A stretch of DNA of 64,000 bases from Bacillota bacterium. GTDB taxonomy: Bacteria; Bacillota_I; Bacilli_A; RF39; UBA660. This document shows, piece by piece, positions 716-12,069 of the stretch (the stretch's first letter is position 1; each line of letters begins with the position of its first letter). A program made the position numbers and the translations under genes. The notes under the pieces were generated by a model. It was not told the DNA's origin. It worked only from the letters and a program-made list of their open reading frames with translations, and ran no database searches. The DNA is taken from contig JAETPN010000001.1 of NCBI GenBank assembly GCA_021771185.1, positions 192,366 through 256,365 of the forward strand. Direction: 5' to 3'.

Positions 716-1600
716 TTATTCAAAATCACGAAATCCAAATTCTGACAAATATTGTTCTTTATCACGCCATTTTTTAATTGTTCGAACCGTTAAATCTAAA
801 TATACTTTTTTCTCTAATAATTGTTCTAACTCTTTACGTGCTCGAATTCCAATTTCCTTAATCTTAGATCCATGTGCGCCAATGATAATTCGTTTTAGTG
901 AATCACGATCTACAATAATAGATGCGTGAATCGTCATACTATTTGATCCTACTTCAACAGTTTCTACAAGACAAGTTACAGAATGCGGCACCTCTTGATG
1001 CGTTAATTCAAACACTTTTTCACGAATAATTTCAGCCATCATAAAATCGAGCGAACGATTGGTAATTTCATTTTCACCATAATACATCACTTGATCCGTT
1101 AGATAAGGTCGTATGGTTTTTAATAATTCATCTACATTTTTTTTCTTTAATCCCGAAAGTGGTACAATTTCTTTAAAATCATACAAATCTTTATATTCCA
1201 TGATCTTTTTTAAAATTTGTTCATGGGTAATTTGATCAATTTTATTTAAAACCAAAATCACAGGTTTATCTATTTCACGAAGACGATCTAAAACAAATTG
1301 ATCCCCAGAACCTAAACTCTTTGTAACATCAACAACAAATAAAATAACATCCACATCCATAAGTGCTCCATAAGCTTGTCTATTTAAATAATGTCCTAAT
1401 TTATGATTTGGCTTATGAATTCCTGGAGTATCTACAAATACCATTTGTGTATCTTTCGTTGTATAAATTCCCTGAATAATATTTCTTGTTGTTTGTGGTT
1501 TATCTGAAGTAATCGCCACTTTTTTCCCAACAATTGAATTAATTAAGGTAGACTTCCCTACATTGGGTCTTCCAATCACACTAATAAATCCTGATCTCAT
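716..1600 (-). CDS. era: GTPase Era
   Basis: Essential Ras-like GTPase that binds the 3' end of 16S rRNA and helps mature the 30S subunit. The sequence shows G1 G-R-P-N-V-G-K-S at residues 10-17, DTPG at 57-60, NKID at 119-122, and a C-terminal type II KH domain with G-A-H-G-S-K-I-K-E-I-G at 241-251. The length of 294 aa is normal. The start has a GAGGGAG site upstream and overlaps the stop of cdd by 4 nt, pointing to translational coupling. The order cdd-era-yqzL is the Bacillus order. Confidence 0.97.
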   Translation of the reverse strand: MRSGFISVIGRPNVGKSTLINSIVGKKVAITSDKPQTTRNIIQGIYTTKDTQMVFVDTPGIHKPNHKLGHYLNRQAYGALMDVDVILFVVDVTKSLGSGDQFVLDRLREIDKPVILVLNKIDQITHEQILKKIMEYKDLYDFKEIVPLSGLKKKNVDELLKTIRPYLTDQVMYYGENEITNRSLDFMMAEIIREKVFELTHQEVPHSVTCLVETVEVGSNSMTIHASIIVDRDSLKRIIIGAHGSKIKEIGIRARKELEQLLEKKVYLDLTVRTIKKWRDKEQYLSEFGFRDFE

Positions 1601-1983
1601 TTTAAGTCTCCCTCATCAAATGGATAGGGACAAAGTTCTTTTACCGTAAATGTTTTTTTCTCTCCCTGATTATTATGGCAAGTAATAAGTGCATCATCCT
1701 TAAAGAATTCACGGATCACTTGTCTACAAGCAAAACAACAAGTACTTATTTTTTCTTGATCAACCATAATATCTAATGCTTTAAAATCTTCTTTTTGATA
1801 TCCTTGTGATACCCCATTTACAATCGCACTTCTTTCTGCACAAATGGTTGCGCCATAACTTGCATTTTCAACGTTTACCCCATGCACTTCTGTTCCATCC
1901 ATCATAGTAATAATACAAGCGACTGGAAAATGAGAATATGGACTATAACTATTTTTTAATAATTGTTTTAATTTTTCTTCCAT
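1597..1983 (-). CDS. cdd: Cytidine deaminase
   Basis: Homotetrameric zinc enzyme that deaminates cytidine and deoxycytidine in pyrimidine salvage. The zinc site is visible as C-A-E (residues 48-50, Glu50 being the proton shuttle) and the pair Cys83/Cys86. The usual Pro before the second motif (P-C-x-x-C) is Cys here, giving C-C-F-A-C; this mild deviation should not remove a ligand. At 128 aa it is a standard short-form enzyme. It overlaps era by 4 nt and lies 9 nt after dgkA. Confidence 0.95.
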   Translation of the reverse strand: MEEKLKQLLKNSYSPYSHFPVACIITMMDGTEVHGVNVENASYGATICAERSAIVNGVSQGYQKEDFKALDIMVDQEKISTCCFACRQVIREFFKDDALITCHNNQGEKKTFTVKELCPYPFDEGDLK

Positions 1984-1992
1984 ACATGCTCC

Positions 1993-2388
1993 TTAAAATA
2001 ATGCGATCAATTTAGGGATAAAGATAAAACAAGCAGCTACAAAGGCAATCATCGCATATACCCCACTTGCGGCACTTCCTGTATCTTTTGCGATTTTAGC
2101 CAGTGGATGAATTTCTGGAGAAGCAAGATCAACTACAGCTTCAATGGCGGTATTTAATAATTCAATAGCTAACATAATACCTAGACCTAAAATACAAAAC
2201 GCCCATTCAAAAGGATTAAGCTTCACAAAAATTCCTAAGCCAATAACAAAAATACTTAAGAATAAATGTAAGGTCATACTTTGTTCATATCGATAAGCAT
2301 ATACTAAACCTTCCCACGAATATTTAAAACTTTTAAAGAAACGTTTTATACCAAATTGTTTATTTCTCCCTTTTGATTCCGTACTCAT
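1993..2388 (-). CDS. dgkA: Undecaprenol/diacylglycerol kinase
   Basis: Small integral membrane kinase of the DgkA family; Gram-positive members mainly phosphorylate undecaprenol to replenish the wall lipid carrier. Three membrane helices are visible at about 41-57, 60-85 and 107-128. The conserved E-L-L-N-T-A-I-E-A-V-V-D helix is at 76-87 and A-K-D-T-G-S-A-A at 100-107. The length of 131 aa is typical. Its start lies 29 nt inside the 3' end of ybeY, so the two genes are probably coupled. This cluster position is conserved in Bacillus. Confidence 0.93.
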   Translation of the reverse strand: MSTESKGRNKQFGIKRFFKSFKYSWEGLVYAYRYEQSMTLHLFLSIFVIGLGIFVKLNPFEWAFCILGLGIMLAIELLNTAIEAVVDLASPEIHPLAKIAKDTGSAASGVYAMIAFVAACFIFIPKLIALF

Positions 2389-2823: not shown

Positions 2824-3435
2824 CTAAATTCCTGACTCAATAATTACATATAAATACATAACAATCAAGATCAAAACAATTATCATTATTATATTATAAA
2901 AAATTGTTTTTTTCAATACACGAGGAAGGTGCTCCTTCATTTTGTGAATCAAGCGATATACATAAAATCCACAAACACCACCAATAATGTTTAACATAAT
3001 ATCATCAACATCAAACACTCTTCCAATCGTAAGCTGTGTTGTTTCAATGCAAACAGATGTAATCATAGATAACAAGAATATTGTACTTGGTTTCTCTAAT
3101 GTTAAAAGGTATGATACAAAGAAACCAAACGGTAAAAACATAATCATATTGCCAATAACATTTTTAAAAAACAAGCTACTACCAATCTCATATCGAAACA
3201 TTTCTTGAAATGGTATAAAGTTCGAAGTAGACCAACTGACATCTTGAAAAGTAACCACATGGAACAAACATAGAATGTAAATAATAAAGCCCAAAACCAT
3301 TAAATCTTTATATAGATAAAAAGGCTCCTTGTTTTTGAGAATATAAACAACGCGCATAGAAATTAAGATGGTTGTAAAAATTAAAACCATTGGCCATACA
3401 TTTTCAAATATATTCACAATTGTTGTTCCTATCAT
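2824..3435 (-). CDS. VanZ-like membrane protein
   Basis: A 203-residue protein with five or six hydrophobic helices and the VanZ signature: N-F-I-P-F near residue 72, N-V-I-G-N-M-I-M-F-L-P-F-G-F near 92-105, E-T-T-Q near 131-134, and D-V-D-D-I-M-L-N-I-I-G-G near 142-153. VanZ relatives include the teicoplanin-resistance accessory protein, but most are uncharacterised. In related Bacillota phoH and pgpH occupy this stretch between yqfD and ybeY; here only this gene does. Its TAG lies inside the ybeY leader. A resistance role is not supported by context. Confidence 0.8.
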   Translation of the reverse strand: MIGTTIVNIFENVWPMVLIFTTILISMRVVYILKNKEPFYLYKDLMVLGFIIYILCLFHVVTFQDVSWSTSNFIPFQEMFRYEIGSSLFFKNVIGNMIMFLPFGFFVSYLLTLEKPSTIFLLSMITSVCIETTQLTIGRVFDVDDIMLNIIGGVCGFYVYRLIHKMKEHLPRVLKKTIFYNIIMIIVLILIVMYLYVIIESGI

Positions 3436-3437
3436 AA

Positions 3438-4628
3438 CTATTCCTCCACTGGTTTTTCTGGCTCCTCTATAATATCACTATAAGCAGTAATATCTTCATA
3501 CACCGAAAAAAACACATCTACTACTATTTTACTATTTCTCATGTCAACTTTCAAATTTTTTTGACCAATTATGTATTCTTTTTTGTCTAGTTTACTCTCA
3601 ATTTTCTTTTTAGCCAGAAGAATTGCTTGATTTAGTGCCTCTTCTTCACTATAAGTAACATCTTTTTTAATCACCTCTTTTTGGTGTTCTTTTACCAAAG
3701 CAATGGGTAACAATGGATGACTTAACATCTTCTTTTCTTTCCGCTCCACCTGTTTGAAGGGATGAAAATTAAAAATTTCAAAACGTTGATTTAAGAATTT
3801 AAAAGTATACACAGTCTTTTCTTTTCCAGTATAAGTTTTCTCATGATATTCATAAGGTAATTCTACATTTGTTTGGTACCATACTTCACCATAAACTTTC
3901 CCATCTGCCCCTGTTTTATTTTTAGATTCTTCGTTTAGCTTAATATCACCACTAATAATAACATCCCCAGGACTCACGTAAGTATTCAATTCTCGAACAA
4001 TTTCACCTCTAGAAGCTTCAATATATTTTATTGTCGCATGTTTTTTCGCCACAATATTTCGAATGGGAATCTCTTTTTTTTGCTCATTTAATTTACGCTC
4101 TTCAACACGTACAATATATTTTGTTCCAACAATCTCAATTTCTAACCATTCTAGCTCATTCTTATGTTCCTCTAAAAGTTGTTTTTTTATCTTCTGGAGT
4201 TCATGATAACTTTTTTTAAAAGCTTTAGGTTTCACCCCAACATTTTCTAGTTCTTGTTGTAACATGGTGCGAAGTTCTGAATCATTATGAATAATTTCAA
4301 TTTGAAACATCACATGAGATAACAGAAATAATAAAAGTAAACCTACACAAATACTTCCAATTAAAATACGATTTTTTAAAGTCACCCTCTTTATTTTAAT
4401 CGCACCATAATAATCGACCACATCAATCTCATAGATTGTTTTAATCGCCATAATATGATCTAACTCATCTTTGTTTACTTTTAATAAAATTTCATTATAA
4501 TGAGGCCTTTTTACCTCTAATAAATCAATATGCGCTCGTACTAAACGATGAAGAAATCGTTCGATATTTTTTCCTGTAACTTTAATCATGACTGTACTTC
4601 TGAATTTATCAAAAAATTTATTTTTCAC
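3438..4628 (-). CDS. yqfD: Sporulation-associated membrane protein YqfD
   Basis: Member of the YqfD family, made under sigma-E in Bacillus; its partner YqfC is adjacent here. From the chosen start, a soluble N-terminal domain (V-T-G-K-N-I-E-R) is followed by one strong membrane helix at about residues 88-112 and a long, probably extracytoplasmic domain with the family motif R-N-I-V-A-K-K-H-A-T-I. I chose the GTG at 4628, with GGTGAT upstream, because it gives M-K-N-K-F-F, close to the Bacillus N-terminus. An ATG at 4724 would add 32 codons running through a terminator-like hairpin and a promoter. The length is then 396 aa, near the usual size. Confidence 0.85.
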   Translation of the reverse strand: MKNKFFDKFRSTVMIKVTGKNIERFLHRLVRAHIDLLEVKRPHYNEILLKVNKDELDHIMAIKTIYEIDVVDYYGAIKIKRVTLKNRILIGSICVGLLLLFLLSHVMFQIEIIHNDSELRTMLQQELENVGVKPKAFKKSYHELQKIKKQLLEEHKNELEWLEIEIVGTKYIVRVEERKLNEQKKEIPIRNIVAKKHATIKYIEASRGEIVRELNTYVSPGDVIISGDIKLNEESKNKTGADGKVYGEVWYQTNVELPYEYHEKTYTGKEKTVYTFKFLNQRFEIFNFHPFKQVERKEKKMLSHPLLPIALVKEHQKEVIKKDVTYSEEEALNQAILLAKKKIESKLDKKEYIIGQKNLKVDMRNSKIVVDVFFSVYEDITAYSDIIEEPEKPVEE

Positions 4629-4648
4629 TAGTATCACCGTCTCTATAC

Positions 4649-4677
4649 ATTGTACGAGGAAATGATTCAAATTATGA
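4649..4677 (-). promoter_or_regulatory. Sigma-E-like promoter for yqfD
   Basis: On the minus strand TCATAAT (4671-4677) is followed after exactly 14 nt by CGTACAAT (4649-4656). The established sigma-E consensus is KMATATT-N14-CATACAHT, so this is 6 of 7 and 7 of 8 matches. A sigma-A reading (TTGAAT at 4665-4670, 17 nt, TATAGA at 4642-4647) overlaps it. Known sigma-E control of yqfD in Bacillus favours the first reading; activity is inferred. Confidence 0.5.
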
Positions 4678-4703
4678 AAAAACACTTCATTCCAAAGTGT
4701 TTT
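4675..4703 (-). terminator. Terminator-like hairpin between yqfC and yqfD
   Basis: A 9-bp stem AAAACACTT (4679-4687) with AAGTGTTTT (4695-4703), 7-nt loop, followed by further Ts on the minus strand. It starts at the yqfC stop codon and would separate yqfC transcription from yqfD. Confidence 0.6.
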
Positions 4704-4941
4704 AACGAAACTCCAAACTATCAATTTCTCCAGATACTAAAACTTCATCGACCATCAATCTAGAAACCACTAATTTTTTTCCTTTAATAACCAAAGTCTT
4801 TCCATCATAACGAATCATAACTTTCGTAGAATCAAAATGTCCAATGGATTCATAATTGATAATATTAATTTGCCCCTTTACAATATTTATTTGAAATTGT
4901 TCATCCAATAAATAAGAACGAAATTGATTTAGTAGTTTCAT
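4702..4941 (-). CDS. yqfC: YabP/YqfC family sporulation protein
   Basis: A 79-residue protein almost entirely made of short alternating strands, with N-Y-E-S-I-G-H-F in the first half and V-I-K-G-K-K-L-V-V and V-L-V-S-G-E-I-D in the second. That is the YabP/YqfC pattern. In Bacillus yqfC is in the sigma-E regulon and lies directly before yqfD, as here. The start has GGTGAT with 4-nt spacing. A CATAAAAT sequence at 4957-4964 (minus strand) resembles a sigma-E -10 element, but no good -35 accompanies it. Function in spore formation is taken from the family. Confidence 0.8.
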   Translation of the reverse strand: MKLLNQFRSYLLDEQFQINIVKGQINIINYESIGHFDSTKVMIRYDGKTLVIKGKKLVVSRLMVDEVLVSGEIDSLEFR

Positions 4942-4983
4942 AACATCACCTAATGTATTTTATGCGAAAAATTTTTCTTTAGA

Positions 4984-5008
4984 AACAAAAAAAGGCATTA
5001 CTGCCTTT
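4984..5008 (-). terminator. Terminator of the HerA-type ATPase gene
   Basis: Stem AAAGGCA (4991-4997) with TGCCTTT (5002-5008), 4-nt loop, followed by seven Ts on the minus strand; it overlaps the stop codon. Confidence 0.85.
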
Positions 5009-6770
5009 CTATAAACCAAATAGTGCTTACATCGCAACTACTACTTGATGGTGCTGGATTTGGCTTATCAAATTGGATAACTACAGGTACTTTAAATCCA
5101 CTACCAAAAGCAACACAGGTTCCAGGTTGTAAGATACGAAGTTTTTTAATAATTTCTTCGGTTACGTTAGGAACCATTTCACGAATATAGGAAACATCTT
5201 TTGGATGCATCATTTTTAAAATTAAGAAATTACTACATTGTGATAAAGCAGTTTCTGATAATTCACTAGGTCGTTGGGAGATCATTCCAAGAAGTACCCC
5301 ATATTTACGTCCTTCTTTGGTAATACGTTCGAAAATATTATAACCTAGTATTTCAATATCATTATCATTTTGAACATAACGGTGTGCTTCTTCTAAAACA
5401 ATATTAAATGGCATTCTTGTTCCTTTCGCAACATCTTTATTATAATCAAATAATAATTTAGAGAAAATTTTAGTTAAATTTTTTGCAAGTCGATCATCAA
5501 CATAGTTAATATTAAAATTAATGATTTGAGCTTTTTTACCACTATCTGCGGTCATTAGTTTTTTAATATATTGTTCTCTTGTAATAAAATCGGGATAATC
5601 AAAATATTCAGCATAATTACTATTTAATAGAGATTGTAAACGTACTCTTAAAATATTGGAACTGTCAAATATTTTTTCACTTTTTAAAGATCCTTCTGAA
5701 ATAAGTGCAAAATCAAATGCGTCTTTTAAATCATTTAATGAATATTTAAATGTTCCATCTGGCAAGGACAGTTCTAACTCATCATTTAAGAAAGATTCCA
5801 TAAAGGTGGTAACTAATTCCATCTCTCTAATTTTACCTGTTTGGTCAATTAATAAACATTGTTTTAAGCTTCTTGTATAACCTGGTTGATAAATTTCTGT
5901 TTCTAGGTTTAATTCTGAAGTATTATAATGCGATAGCACAGAAAAAATTTGATCACGAATTTGAGCTGCGCCGCGCCCACTCGATAAAATATCTAAAATC
6001 GCACGTGCGATAATATCATTTTTATGTTTGATAACCATACTTTCTTCACGGGCAAAAATGGTCACGAGTTTTAGGGCTTTTTCAATAATTGGTAATTGTG
6101 CAGGACTTTCTACTCCTAGTAGTAAAGCGATATCATCTACCGTTAGTAACCAAAGAGGAATTCGAATAATTTCAGAATCTGAAAAATTGGTATTTGTTGT
6201 ATAGGCTTTAAAACTAATACCTGGAGTTACTTTTCCAATGTCTTTAAAGGCACTGTGATATTCACCGTAAGCATCAAAGATAAAGAAACTAGCACGATAT
6301 GGAATAGAATGGGTACGTGTAAAAAGATTTTGAATCATACGAGCAACACTCCAAGATTTACCACTACCACTATTTCCAAATACCGCAAAATGATTTGCGA
6401 AAAAATCATTTAAACGAACACCTAATTTAATTCCTGGATAAATAGGACTCATGCCTAAATATAAATCTCGATTTTCTTTAAATTCGGGAATTCCAATGAT
6501 TAAAGGAATTTTTTCATTAGAAACGACACGAACAGTTGCGCCAAAGGAAGGTTTACGAATAACACCACCAACAAAACGGTCCCCAATAAATTCTCCAATT
6601 AAGTTCACATGAGCTATACCATCCTTAATATGGATGACTTCTCCAACCACCATTTTATCTGAATCCTCAAACACTAAATGATGGTTTGCGAGTGTCTGCA
6701 CTTTTAATACTTCTGGATTTAATGTAACAAGGACAATGTTTTCCTCAATTCCTGAAATTTTACCTAACAT
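4998..6770 (-). CDS. HerA-type hexameric ATPase (DUF87)
   Basis: A 590-residue motor of the HerA/FtsK superfamily. The first 110 residues form a beta-rich HAS-barrel-like domain. Walker A G-N-S-G-S-G-K-S is at 132-139, Walker B I-V-L-E-E-A-H at 457-463, and the sensor/arginine stretch K-E-G-R-K-Y-G...S-Q-R-P-S-E at about 485-503. Archaeal HerA works with the nuclease NurA in end resection, and some bacterial relatives pair with nucleases or Sir2 proteins in phage defence. No such partner is adjacent. It is monocistronic, with an AGGAGGG site before the start. The precise role is unknown. Confidence 0.85.
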   Translation of the reverse strand: MLGKISGIEENIVLVTLNPEVLKVQTLANHHLVFEDSDKMVVGEVIHIKDGIAHVNLIGEFIGDRFVGGVIRKPSFGATVRVVSNEKIPLIIGIPEFKENRDLYLGMSPIYPGIKLGVRLNDFFANHFAVFGNSGSGKSWSVARMIQNLFTRTHSIPYRASFFIFDAYGEYHSAFKDIGKVTPGISFKAYTTNTNFSDSEIIRIPLWLLTVDDIALLLGVESPAQLPIIEKALKLVTIFAREESMVIKHKNDIIARAILDILSSGRGAAQIRDQIFSVLSHYNTSELNLETEIYQPGYTRSLKQCLLIDQTGKIREMELVTTFMESFLNDELELSLPDGTFKYSLNDLKDAFDFALISEGSLKSEKIFDSSNILRVRLQSLLNSNYAEYFDYPDFITREQYIKKLMTADSGKKAQIINFNINYVDDRLAKNLTKIFSKLLFDYNKDVAKGTRMPFNIVLEEAHRYVQNDNDIEILGYNIFERITKEGRKYGVLLGMISQRPSELSETALSQCSNFLILKMMHPKDVSYIREMVPNVTEEIIKKLRILQPGTCVAFGSGFKVPVVIQFDKPNPAPSSSSCDVSTIWFIERQ

Positions 6771-11448: not shown

Positions 11449-12069
11449 CTATTTATGTTCATTCTTTTTATTTAATGTCACCATAATTTTATTTTTAATT
11501 CGTTGAATCGCATTATCAATGGCTTTTGGTTCTTTATCTAAAATACTAGCGATTTCTTTATAACTAAAATGATTAATTTTAAGTTCAAATACTTGTGATT
11601 CAAAAGAAGTTAATTTTTCTTTGATTCTACTTACTAACTCTTCCATACTTTCAATTTCTATTAAATAGTTTTCTGGATTTAATGTAGAGTCTTCAAGTGC
11701 GGTTTCTAGTGCATTACTTTCATCTTCATTGGCTTCAAAGGAAAGAGATTCATTTAAAATACGATGTTTTAATCGTTTTGATGAAACAATTAAACTAACC
11801 ATTTTACTTTCAATACAAGTTTTCGCATACGTGAAAAATAAAACATCTTTTTTATCATCAAATGTATCAATGGCTTGATTGAGTCCTAAATATCCTTCTT
11901 GAATTAAATCTTTTGTTTCTAAACCCAAATTAGGACAAGTTCGAATCATTTTAGTTGCGGTAGATACAATTAATGGTTTATATTTTTCAAATAATATTTC
12001 ATGACTATCTTCATTACTTTCAGCAATAAAACTTAATAATTCATGATCATTAAATTCTTTATAATTCAT
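11449..12069 (-). CDS. sigH: RNA polymerase sigma factor, SigH-like
   Basis: A 206-residue sigma-70 family protein without region 1.1. Region 2 contains L-E-T-K-D-L-I-Q-E-G-Y-L-G-L-N-Q-A-I-D-T-F; region 4 at about 155-200 ends in an HTH (F-S-Y-K-E-I-A-S-I-L-D...I-D-N-A-I-Q-R-I-K-N-K-I). Size and gene order (mrnC-rlmB-sigH as in Bacillus) favour SigH, which directs entry into sporulation and competence genes. It overlaps rlmB by 11 nt. An alternative is a related alternative sigma factor with a lineage-specific role. Confidence 0.75.
   Translation of the reverse strand: MNYKEFNDHELLSFIAESNEDSHEILFEKYKPLIVSTATKMIRTCPNLGLETKDLIQEGYLGLNQAIDTFDDKKDVLFFTYAKTCIESKMVSLIVSSKRLKHRILNESLSFEANEDESNALETALEDSTLNPENYLIEIESMEELVSRIKEKLTSFESQVFELKINHFSYKEIASILDKEPKAIDNAIQRIKNKIMVTLNKKNEHK

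Follow-up and report, generated by a model that had tools for sequence, protein, structure and literature searches.

In Bacillus subtilis, yqfCD and spoIVA are listed as sigma-E genes (PMC517825), and the C. difficile YqfC/YqfD pair (CD2443-CD2442) forms one sigma-E-controlled operon (PMC3789822). The B. subtilis genes receive an extra input by sigma-W read-through from yqeZ-yqfA-yqfB into yqfC and yqfD (PMC3498285), and for sporulation efficiency a value of 72.9 is reported when yqfC is mutated and of 0 when yqfD is (PMC4703394). The -10 element is common to sigma-E and sigma-K promoters, whereas a base in the -35 element, which is C in sigma-K promoters, distinguishes them; the residue pair that acts as the -35 discriminator is glutamine in SigE and arginine in SigK (PMC517825). 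Field et al. (2024) predicted spore formation for some of the related orders of uncultured Bacilli (RF39, RFN20, and ML615J-28); in RF39, SpoIIGA is present and SpoIIAB and SpoIIE are reduced or missing, and spores are still predicted (PMC10868615). The parts of that paper used here treat gene presence, not promoters or operon structure.

The window (the whole stretch of 64,000 nucleotides analysed) carries the same adjacent sigma-E gene pair as yqfCD of B. subtilis and CD2443-CD2442 of C. difficile (PMC517825, PMC3789822). Unlike those pairs, its yqfD has a second putative sigma-E-type promoter behind a hairpin. The yqeZ-yqfA-yqfB neighbourhood of B. subtilis is absent here, and a HerA-like ATPase gene lies upstream instead. 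Two sigma-E promoters in one sigma-E operon, as predicted here, are also known from B. subtilis spoIIIA (PMC517825); unlike in that eight-gene operon, the second promoter here precedes the second gene of a pair and lies behind a hairpin.

Gene layout and the start of yqfD

As shown in Table 1, the minus-strand order is the HerA-like ATPase gene, a hairpin (5010-4989), yqfC (4941-4702), a gap of 73 bp, and yqfD (4628-3438). The yqfD product (query 3438-4625, without the GTG) passes the PF06898 cut-off of 25.2 with 241.4 bits and stays below the equivalog cut-off of TIGR02876 (214.7 bits; cut-off, 256.7). The yqfC product likewise passes PF07873 (46.3 bits; cut-off, 27) and is below the equivalog cut-off of TIGR02856 (30.9 bits; cut-off, 77.8). 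YqfD is present in all 5 genomes of the genus and in 207 of 243 genomes of the family, our own included. A YqfC-like gene was found 5' of yqfD in 184 of the 207 loci compared, the remaining 23 not being placed, and 166 distinct loci (own included) were retained.

The mechanically listed yqfD reading frame, which starts at 4724, is 32 codons too long. The sequence-only reading had already moved the start to the GTG at 4628, and the relatives bear this out: in the four congeners the start codon is at the homologous place and no more than 11 open codons precede it, and a start codon falls exactly at this position in 44 of 91 loci (own included; some genomes are represented twice). The promoter elements, the hairpin, GGTGAT, and the GTG of that reading were re-read on the minus strand and are right. 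A VanZ-like gene (window 2824-3435, minus strand) sits between yqfD and ybeY, a slot that in B. subtilis is occupied by phoH.

Table 1. Features of the yqfC-yqfD locus in window coordinates.
Feature	Position	Strand	Basis
yqfD, GTG start, 396 aa	3438..4628	-	PF06898 and TIGR02876 profiles; congener start place
GGTGAT, ribosome-binding site of yqfD, 4 bases 5' of GTG 4628-4626	4633..4638	-	read directly
-10 element CGTACAAT of putative yqfD promoter	4649..4656	-	consensus match
-35 element TTCATAAT of putative yqfD promoter, 14 nt from -10	4671..4678	-	consensus match and relatives' model
Hairpin with T-run at yqfC stop, possible weak terminator	4679..4703	-	folding; read directly
yqfC, 79 aa, YabP-family protein; stop 4704-4702	4702..4941	-	PF07873 and TIGR02856 profiles
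AGGTGA, ribosome-binding site of yqfC	4946..4951	-	read directly
-10 element CATAAAAT of putative yqfC promoter	4957..4964	-	relatives' model
-35 element TTTCTAAA of putative yqfC promoter, weaker, 13 nt from -10	4978..4985	-	relatives' model
Terminator-like hairpin after HerA-like ATPase gene, just 5' of putative yqfC promoter	4989..5010	-	terminator scan

Candidate sigma-E promoter elements

Read directly on the minus strand, the yqfD gap contains TCATAAT (4677-4671), 14 nt, and CGTACAAT (4656-4649). Compared with KMATATT-N14-CATACAHT, the site has two mismatches in total and a spacer of 14. Its layout, ATA-N16-CGTACAAT, lacks the sigma-K 'AC' at that place and has the same ATA-N16 arrangement before the -10 as the mapped C. 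difficile spoIIID promoter, ATA-N16-CATATATA (PMC3789822). The TTCATAAT octamer and the N14 spacer are identical 5' of the spoIVA gene of this genome, where the site is TTCATAAT-N14-CATATAGTG, and CGTACAATG, the same as the yqfD -10, also occurs in the yqfC promoters of two relatives (L049 and L054). The G at the second place of the yqfD -10 is rare in the relatives' model described below (0.02-0.03) and counts against the promoter reading.

The Bacillus consensus alone cannot separate the yqfD site from chance, since the window holds 4 matches with at most two mismatches against a mean of 7.55 in shuffled sequence, and 95 of 100 shuffles have at least 4. This comparison had been set beforehand by the sequence-only reading as one of its refuting tests, and it gave no excess. 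Across the genome, matches with at most three mismatches number 716+559 (1275), versus 544+418 (962) for the reversed pattern. The missing enrichment bears on the consensus as a detector and not on the single yqfD site, for which the case rests on place and comparison. A stricter promoter-plus-ribosome-site pattern (2 matches, 0 in the control) was discarded for the yqfD site, where its match is circular because the pattern was shaped by that site itself; the other match (C36, L144) was looked at for open reading frames only.

A two-block promoter model was seeded with the Bacillus consensus and fitted on the yqfC upstream regions of relatives. The first model used 97 relatives with our own genome left out and took the form ttcATAat-N13/14-cATAaAaTT; the stricter model used 154 short-gap relatives, with our own and the other large-gap genomes left out, and took the form ttcaTaat-N13/14-CATAtAaTT. 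With the first model, the yqfD gap scores 11.25, a value reached by 1 of 3000 gap shuffles, by 16 of 128,000 window positions (yqfD site included), and by 26 of 3000 random 73-mers of the window. With the stricter model, the yqfD site scores 9.69, and 1 of 500 gap shuffles is as high. The relatives' model thus supports the sequence-only proposal of a sigma-E-type promoter for yqfD.

Before yqfC, 113 of the 154 short-gap relatives score at least 10 in the stricter model. In 105 of these 113 loci, the distance from the end of the 9-base -10 block to the yqfC start is 13-17 nt; the yqfC leader of the relatives would be about 8 nt long, with the ribosome site at its very 5' end. The upstream region of our own yqfC scores 10.58 in the 154-locus model and 11.03 in the 97-relative model (3 of 3000 shuffles as high), and this gene appears to retain a promoter of the same sigma-E type, in which the -35 is weaker and the spacer is 13 nt long.

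For spoIVA, 30 loci were given, 8 of which were unscored since the start motif did not find them. A score of at least 8 is reached upstream in 21 of the 22 genomes scored with the stricter model (own included), compared with 1.6 expected from shuffles. Because the model never saw spoIVA and yet scores its sites, the motif is not peculiar to yqfC but a promoter type shared among mother-cell genes. The distance from the -10 block to the start is 20-29 nt in 21 spoIVA loci. Our own yabP site, TTCATATT-N13-AATATACTC, scores 4.9 and our own sigK site 7.3, so the model is an imperfect detector that misses at least one expected gene.

Hairpins flanking yqfC

The hairpin (4703-4679) consists of a 10-bp stem and a loop of 5 nt, and its T-run continues into TCATAAT. 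Its energy of -9.5 kcal/mol is equalled by 1 of 200 shuffles of the 35-nt piece and, when 14 extra upstream bases are included (49-nt piece), by 11 of 200. A 34-nt piece with the hairpin in front of the yqfC promoter folds at -10.2 kcal/mol. Of 114 high-scoring yqfC promoters among the relatives, 35 have a T-run of at least 5 that overlaps the -35 or lies within the 14 nt 5' of it, an arrangement that looks like a terminator of the upstream gene merging with the promoter.

The yqfC-yqfD gap across relatives

Of the 166 distinct loci, 154 have a gap of 30 bp or less and 12 a larger one (own included); one locus with a gap of 116 that contains N (L119) is outside this set. The four congeners have gaps of 12, 15, 15, and 20 bp, with little beyond a ribosome-binding site, versus 73 bp here, and the 73-bp gap is thus derived, having arisen in this species or its very near kin. 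When the genome was searched for further copies of the 73-bp gap, only short matches came up, the best being 20 nt at 95% (E 0.014). The congener L045 and Candidatus Pelethosoma merdigallinarum (L076) have the same identity (69.5%) and start pattern, and the genus is therefore probably Pelethosoma. We take the GTDB order of Pelethosoma and of this genome to be RF39. In the NCBI taxonomy, Pelethosoma is placed in Mycoplasmatota incertae sedis.

A site scoring at least 8 precedes yqfD in 10 of the 12 large-gap loci (own included) versus 3 of the 154 short-gap loci, and at least 10 in 7 of 12 versus 0 of 154. Shuffles of the same 12 gaps give an expectation of 0.51 at the lower threshold, the reverse strand gives 1 of 12, and 11 of 166 75-mers inside yqfD score at least 8. 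The Fisher value of 5e-12 for large versus short gaps overstates independence because the 12 loci include three congeneric pairs (g81, g123, and g52). These 12 loci come from eight labelled genera plus L104, which has no genus label, and the 10 high scorers come from seven plus L104; one large-gap locus, L202, scores only 6.7. A yqfC promoter score of at least 10 is found in 2 of the 12 large-gap loci, the window species being one, versus the 113 of 154 given above. A second choice of starts that gave weight to the ribosome site moved 16 of them and left all 12 large gaps in place.

Separate gains are favoured because g1, g60, and g61 each have a congener with a short gap (4-22 bp), and the large-gap pattern suggests repeated gain of a yqfD promoter. 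The doubts about such repeated gain concern the congeneric pairs, the AT-rich spacers, the reliance on genus labels in place of a tree, and two doubtful yqfD starts, L178 and L259, each preceded by another ATG that has a good ribosome site and, in L178, lies out of frame. The L178 gap holds a 13-codon out-of-frame reading frame with a good ribosome site, the end of which overlaps the yqfD start; it could be a leader peptide or a frameshift. We propose only tentatively that, throughout the family, opening of this junction is followed by repeated gain of a yqfD sigma-E promoter, in many cases beside a weaker yqfC promoter, and that the reason is a difference in the amount or timing at which the two proteins are required; the unequal effects of the two mutations in B. 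subtilis hint at such a difference.

Sporulation genes of the genome

The assembly is 1.24 Mb in size and 94% complete. The genome search that the sequence-only reading had called for returned Spo0A twice, SpoIIGA, SigE, SpoIVA, and a weak SigF-like factor, and the profile matches further include SigG, a SigK-like factor, YabG, YabP, and YabQ. Both Spo0A proteins (256.4 and 262.4 bits) are above the equivalog cut-off of 200; the two full genes are side by side at G000:C17:267227-268414 (L011 and L012). SigE (314.8 bits to its best family, NF006158, whose cut-off of 339 is not reached) lies beside SpoIIGA (117.7 bits), and SigE, SigG, SpoIIGA, and the SigF-like protein (163.1 bits) are all below equivalog cut-offs. 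At the -35-contacting place, the SigE tail ISQSYISRIEK has glutamine, whereas the SigK-like tail ISRSYVSRIEK has arginine.

SpoIIE was not found in this 94% complete assembly, and no SpoIIAB-type protein was above the cut-off, absence from such an assembly being no proof. The SigF-like gene, whose profile match is without about 14 N-terminal residues, comes directly after a STAS-domain SpoIIAA-like gene with no spoIIAB in between (L009, G000:C32:4937-8116; 1051-2047, minus strand). The genome resembles the RF39 sets of Field et al. in having SpoIIGA and gaps at SpoIIAB and SpoIIE (PMC10868615). The surprise voiced in the sequence-only reading, that sporulation occurs where it might not be expected, was already in print, since that paper predicts spores in related uncultured Bacilli orders despite such gene gaps (PMC10868615). 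A window gene that had been called SigH-like (11449-12069) is a sigma factor whose identity as SigH is unsupported, with 99.4 bits to TIGR02859 against a cut-off of 294.8 and 121.5 of 212 to its best family, NF006147. From sequence, we infer a sporulation pathway that would be working.

A proposed added promoter for yqfD and its alternatives

The best explanation, to which we give a probability of about 0.8, is that a second sigma-E promoter before yqfD has been added to a retained yqfC promoter, together with a modest hairpin. The ancestral yqfC-yqfD would have been a two-gene mother-cell operon with one sigma-E promoter a few bases 5' of yqfC, and about 53-61 bp would have been gained between the genes in this species. 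A second sigma-E promoter for yqfD alone, TTCATAAT-N14-CGTACAAT, would lie in the gained DNA together with the modest terminator-like hairpin, and yqfC would keep its own sigma-E promoter. On activation of SigE by SpoIIGA, yqfC and yqfD would both be switched on in the mother cell, and the output of yqfD would no longer depend solely on read-through from yqfC. Sigma-E RNA polymerase presumably uses the yqfD site, the hairpin would stop part of the transcripts, and the benefit would be a level of yqfD that is independent of yqfC. One genome of the species was seen, and the yqfD element may be a peculiarity of the assembly or the strain.

The sequence-only reading had yqfC and yqfD split by promoter and terminator. 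In a full split, the hairpin would stop all yqfC transcripts and leave yqfD wholly on its own promoter. The 10-bp hairpin with its T-run exactly at the yqfC stop speaks for this, as do the congeners' gaps with little room for anything but a ribosome-binding site. On the other hand, the stem has few G-C pairs, the U-run is mostly paired, the hairpin is not among the terminators listed by the terminator scan, it is ordinary in the longer fold, and no such hairpin was seen by eye in the other large gaps; we regard a full split as unlikely. With a modest hairpin and a sigma-E-type promoter in front of yqfC itself, read-through from yqfC into yqfD is likely, and an added internal promoter with partial termination appears to fit better than a clean split. 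It is quite improbable that the site is an AT-rich spacer resembling a promoter by chance, with yqfD read from the yqfC promoter only. Such an origin is in line with the consensus counts, the random 73-mers of the window, and the coding 75-mers inside yqfD, but very few gap shuffles reach the score under either model, the site is on the right strand and in the right place, sites of this kind fill most of the large gaps against an expectation of less than one, and the -35 octamer and spacer recur before the genome's own spoIVA.

Use of the site by another sigma factor is likewise improbable. Read as TTCATA-N18-TACAAT, it could be a weak vegetative sigma-A promoter, with 9 of 12 matches in a simple scan; however, that scan gives 29 sites in a 5-kb stretch versus 28.2 in shuffles, and the relatives' yqfC promoters share the two-block form of the models, the same model also finding spoIVA. 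A late mother-cell sigma-K promoter has an equally slight probability: the -10 common to both factors would allow it (PMC517825), and the genome encodes a SigK-like factor, but the discriminating -35 base of the yqfD site, at the position as we aligned it, is T where sigma-K promoters have C, and both spoIVA and yqfCD belong to the listed sigma-E genes (PMC517825).

The sporulation operon is otherwise ordinary, and the added yqfD promoter, which the four congeners lack, seems to rewire it modestly. A separate promoter for yqfD would fit with the fact that the two genes carry unequal weight in B. subtilis (PMC4703394). Sequence comparison alone also yields the form that the sigma-E promoter takes in this family of uncultured Bacilli, which is usable for regulon prediction, and the yqfD promoter would offer a small example, open to testing, of how an operon in the sporulation pathway is rewired.
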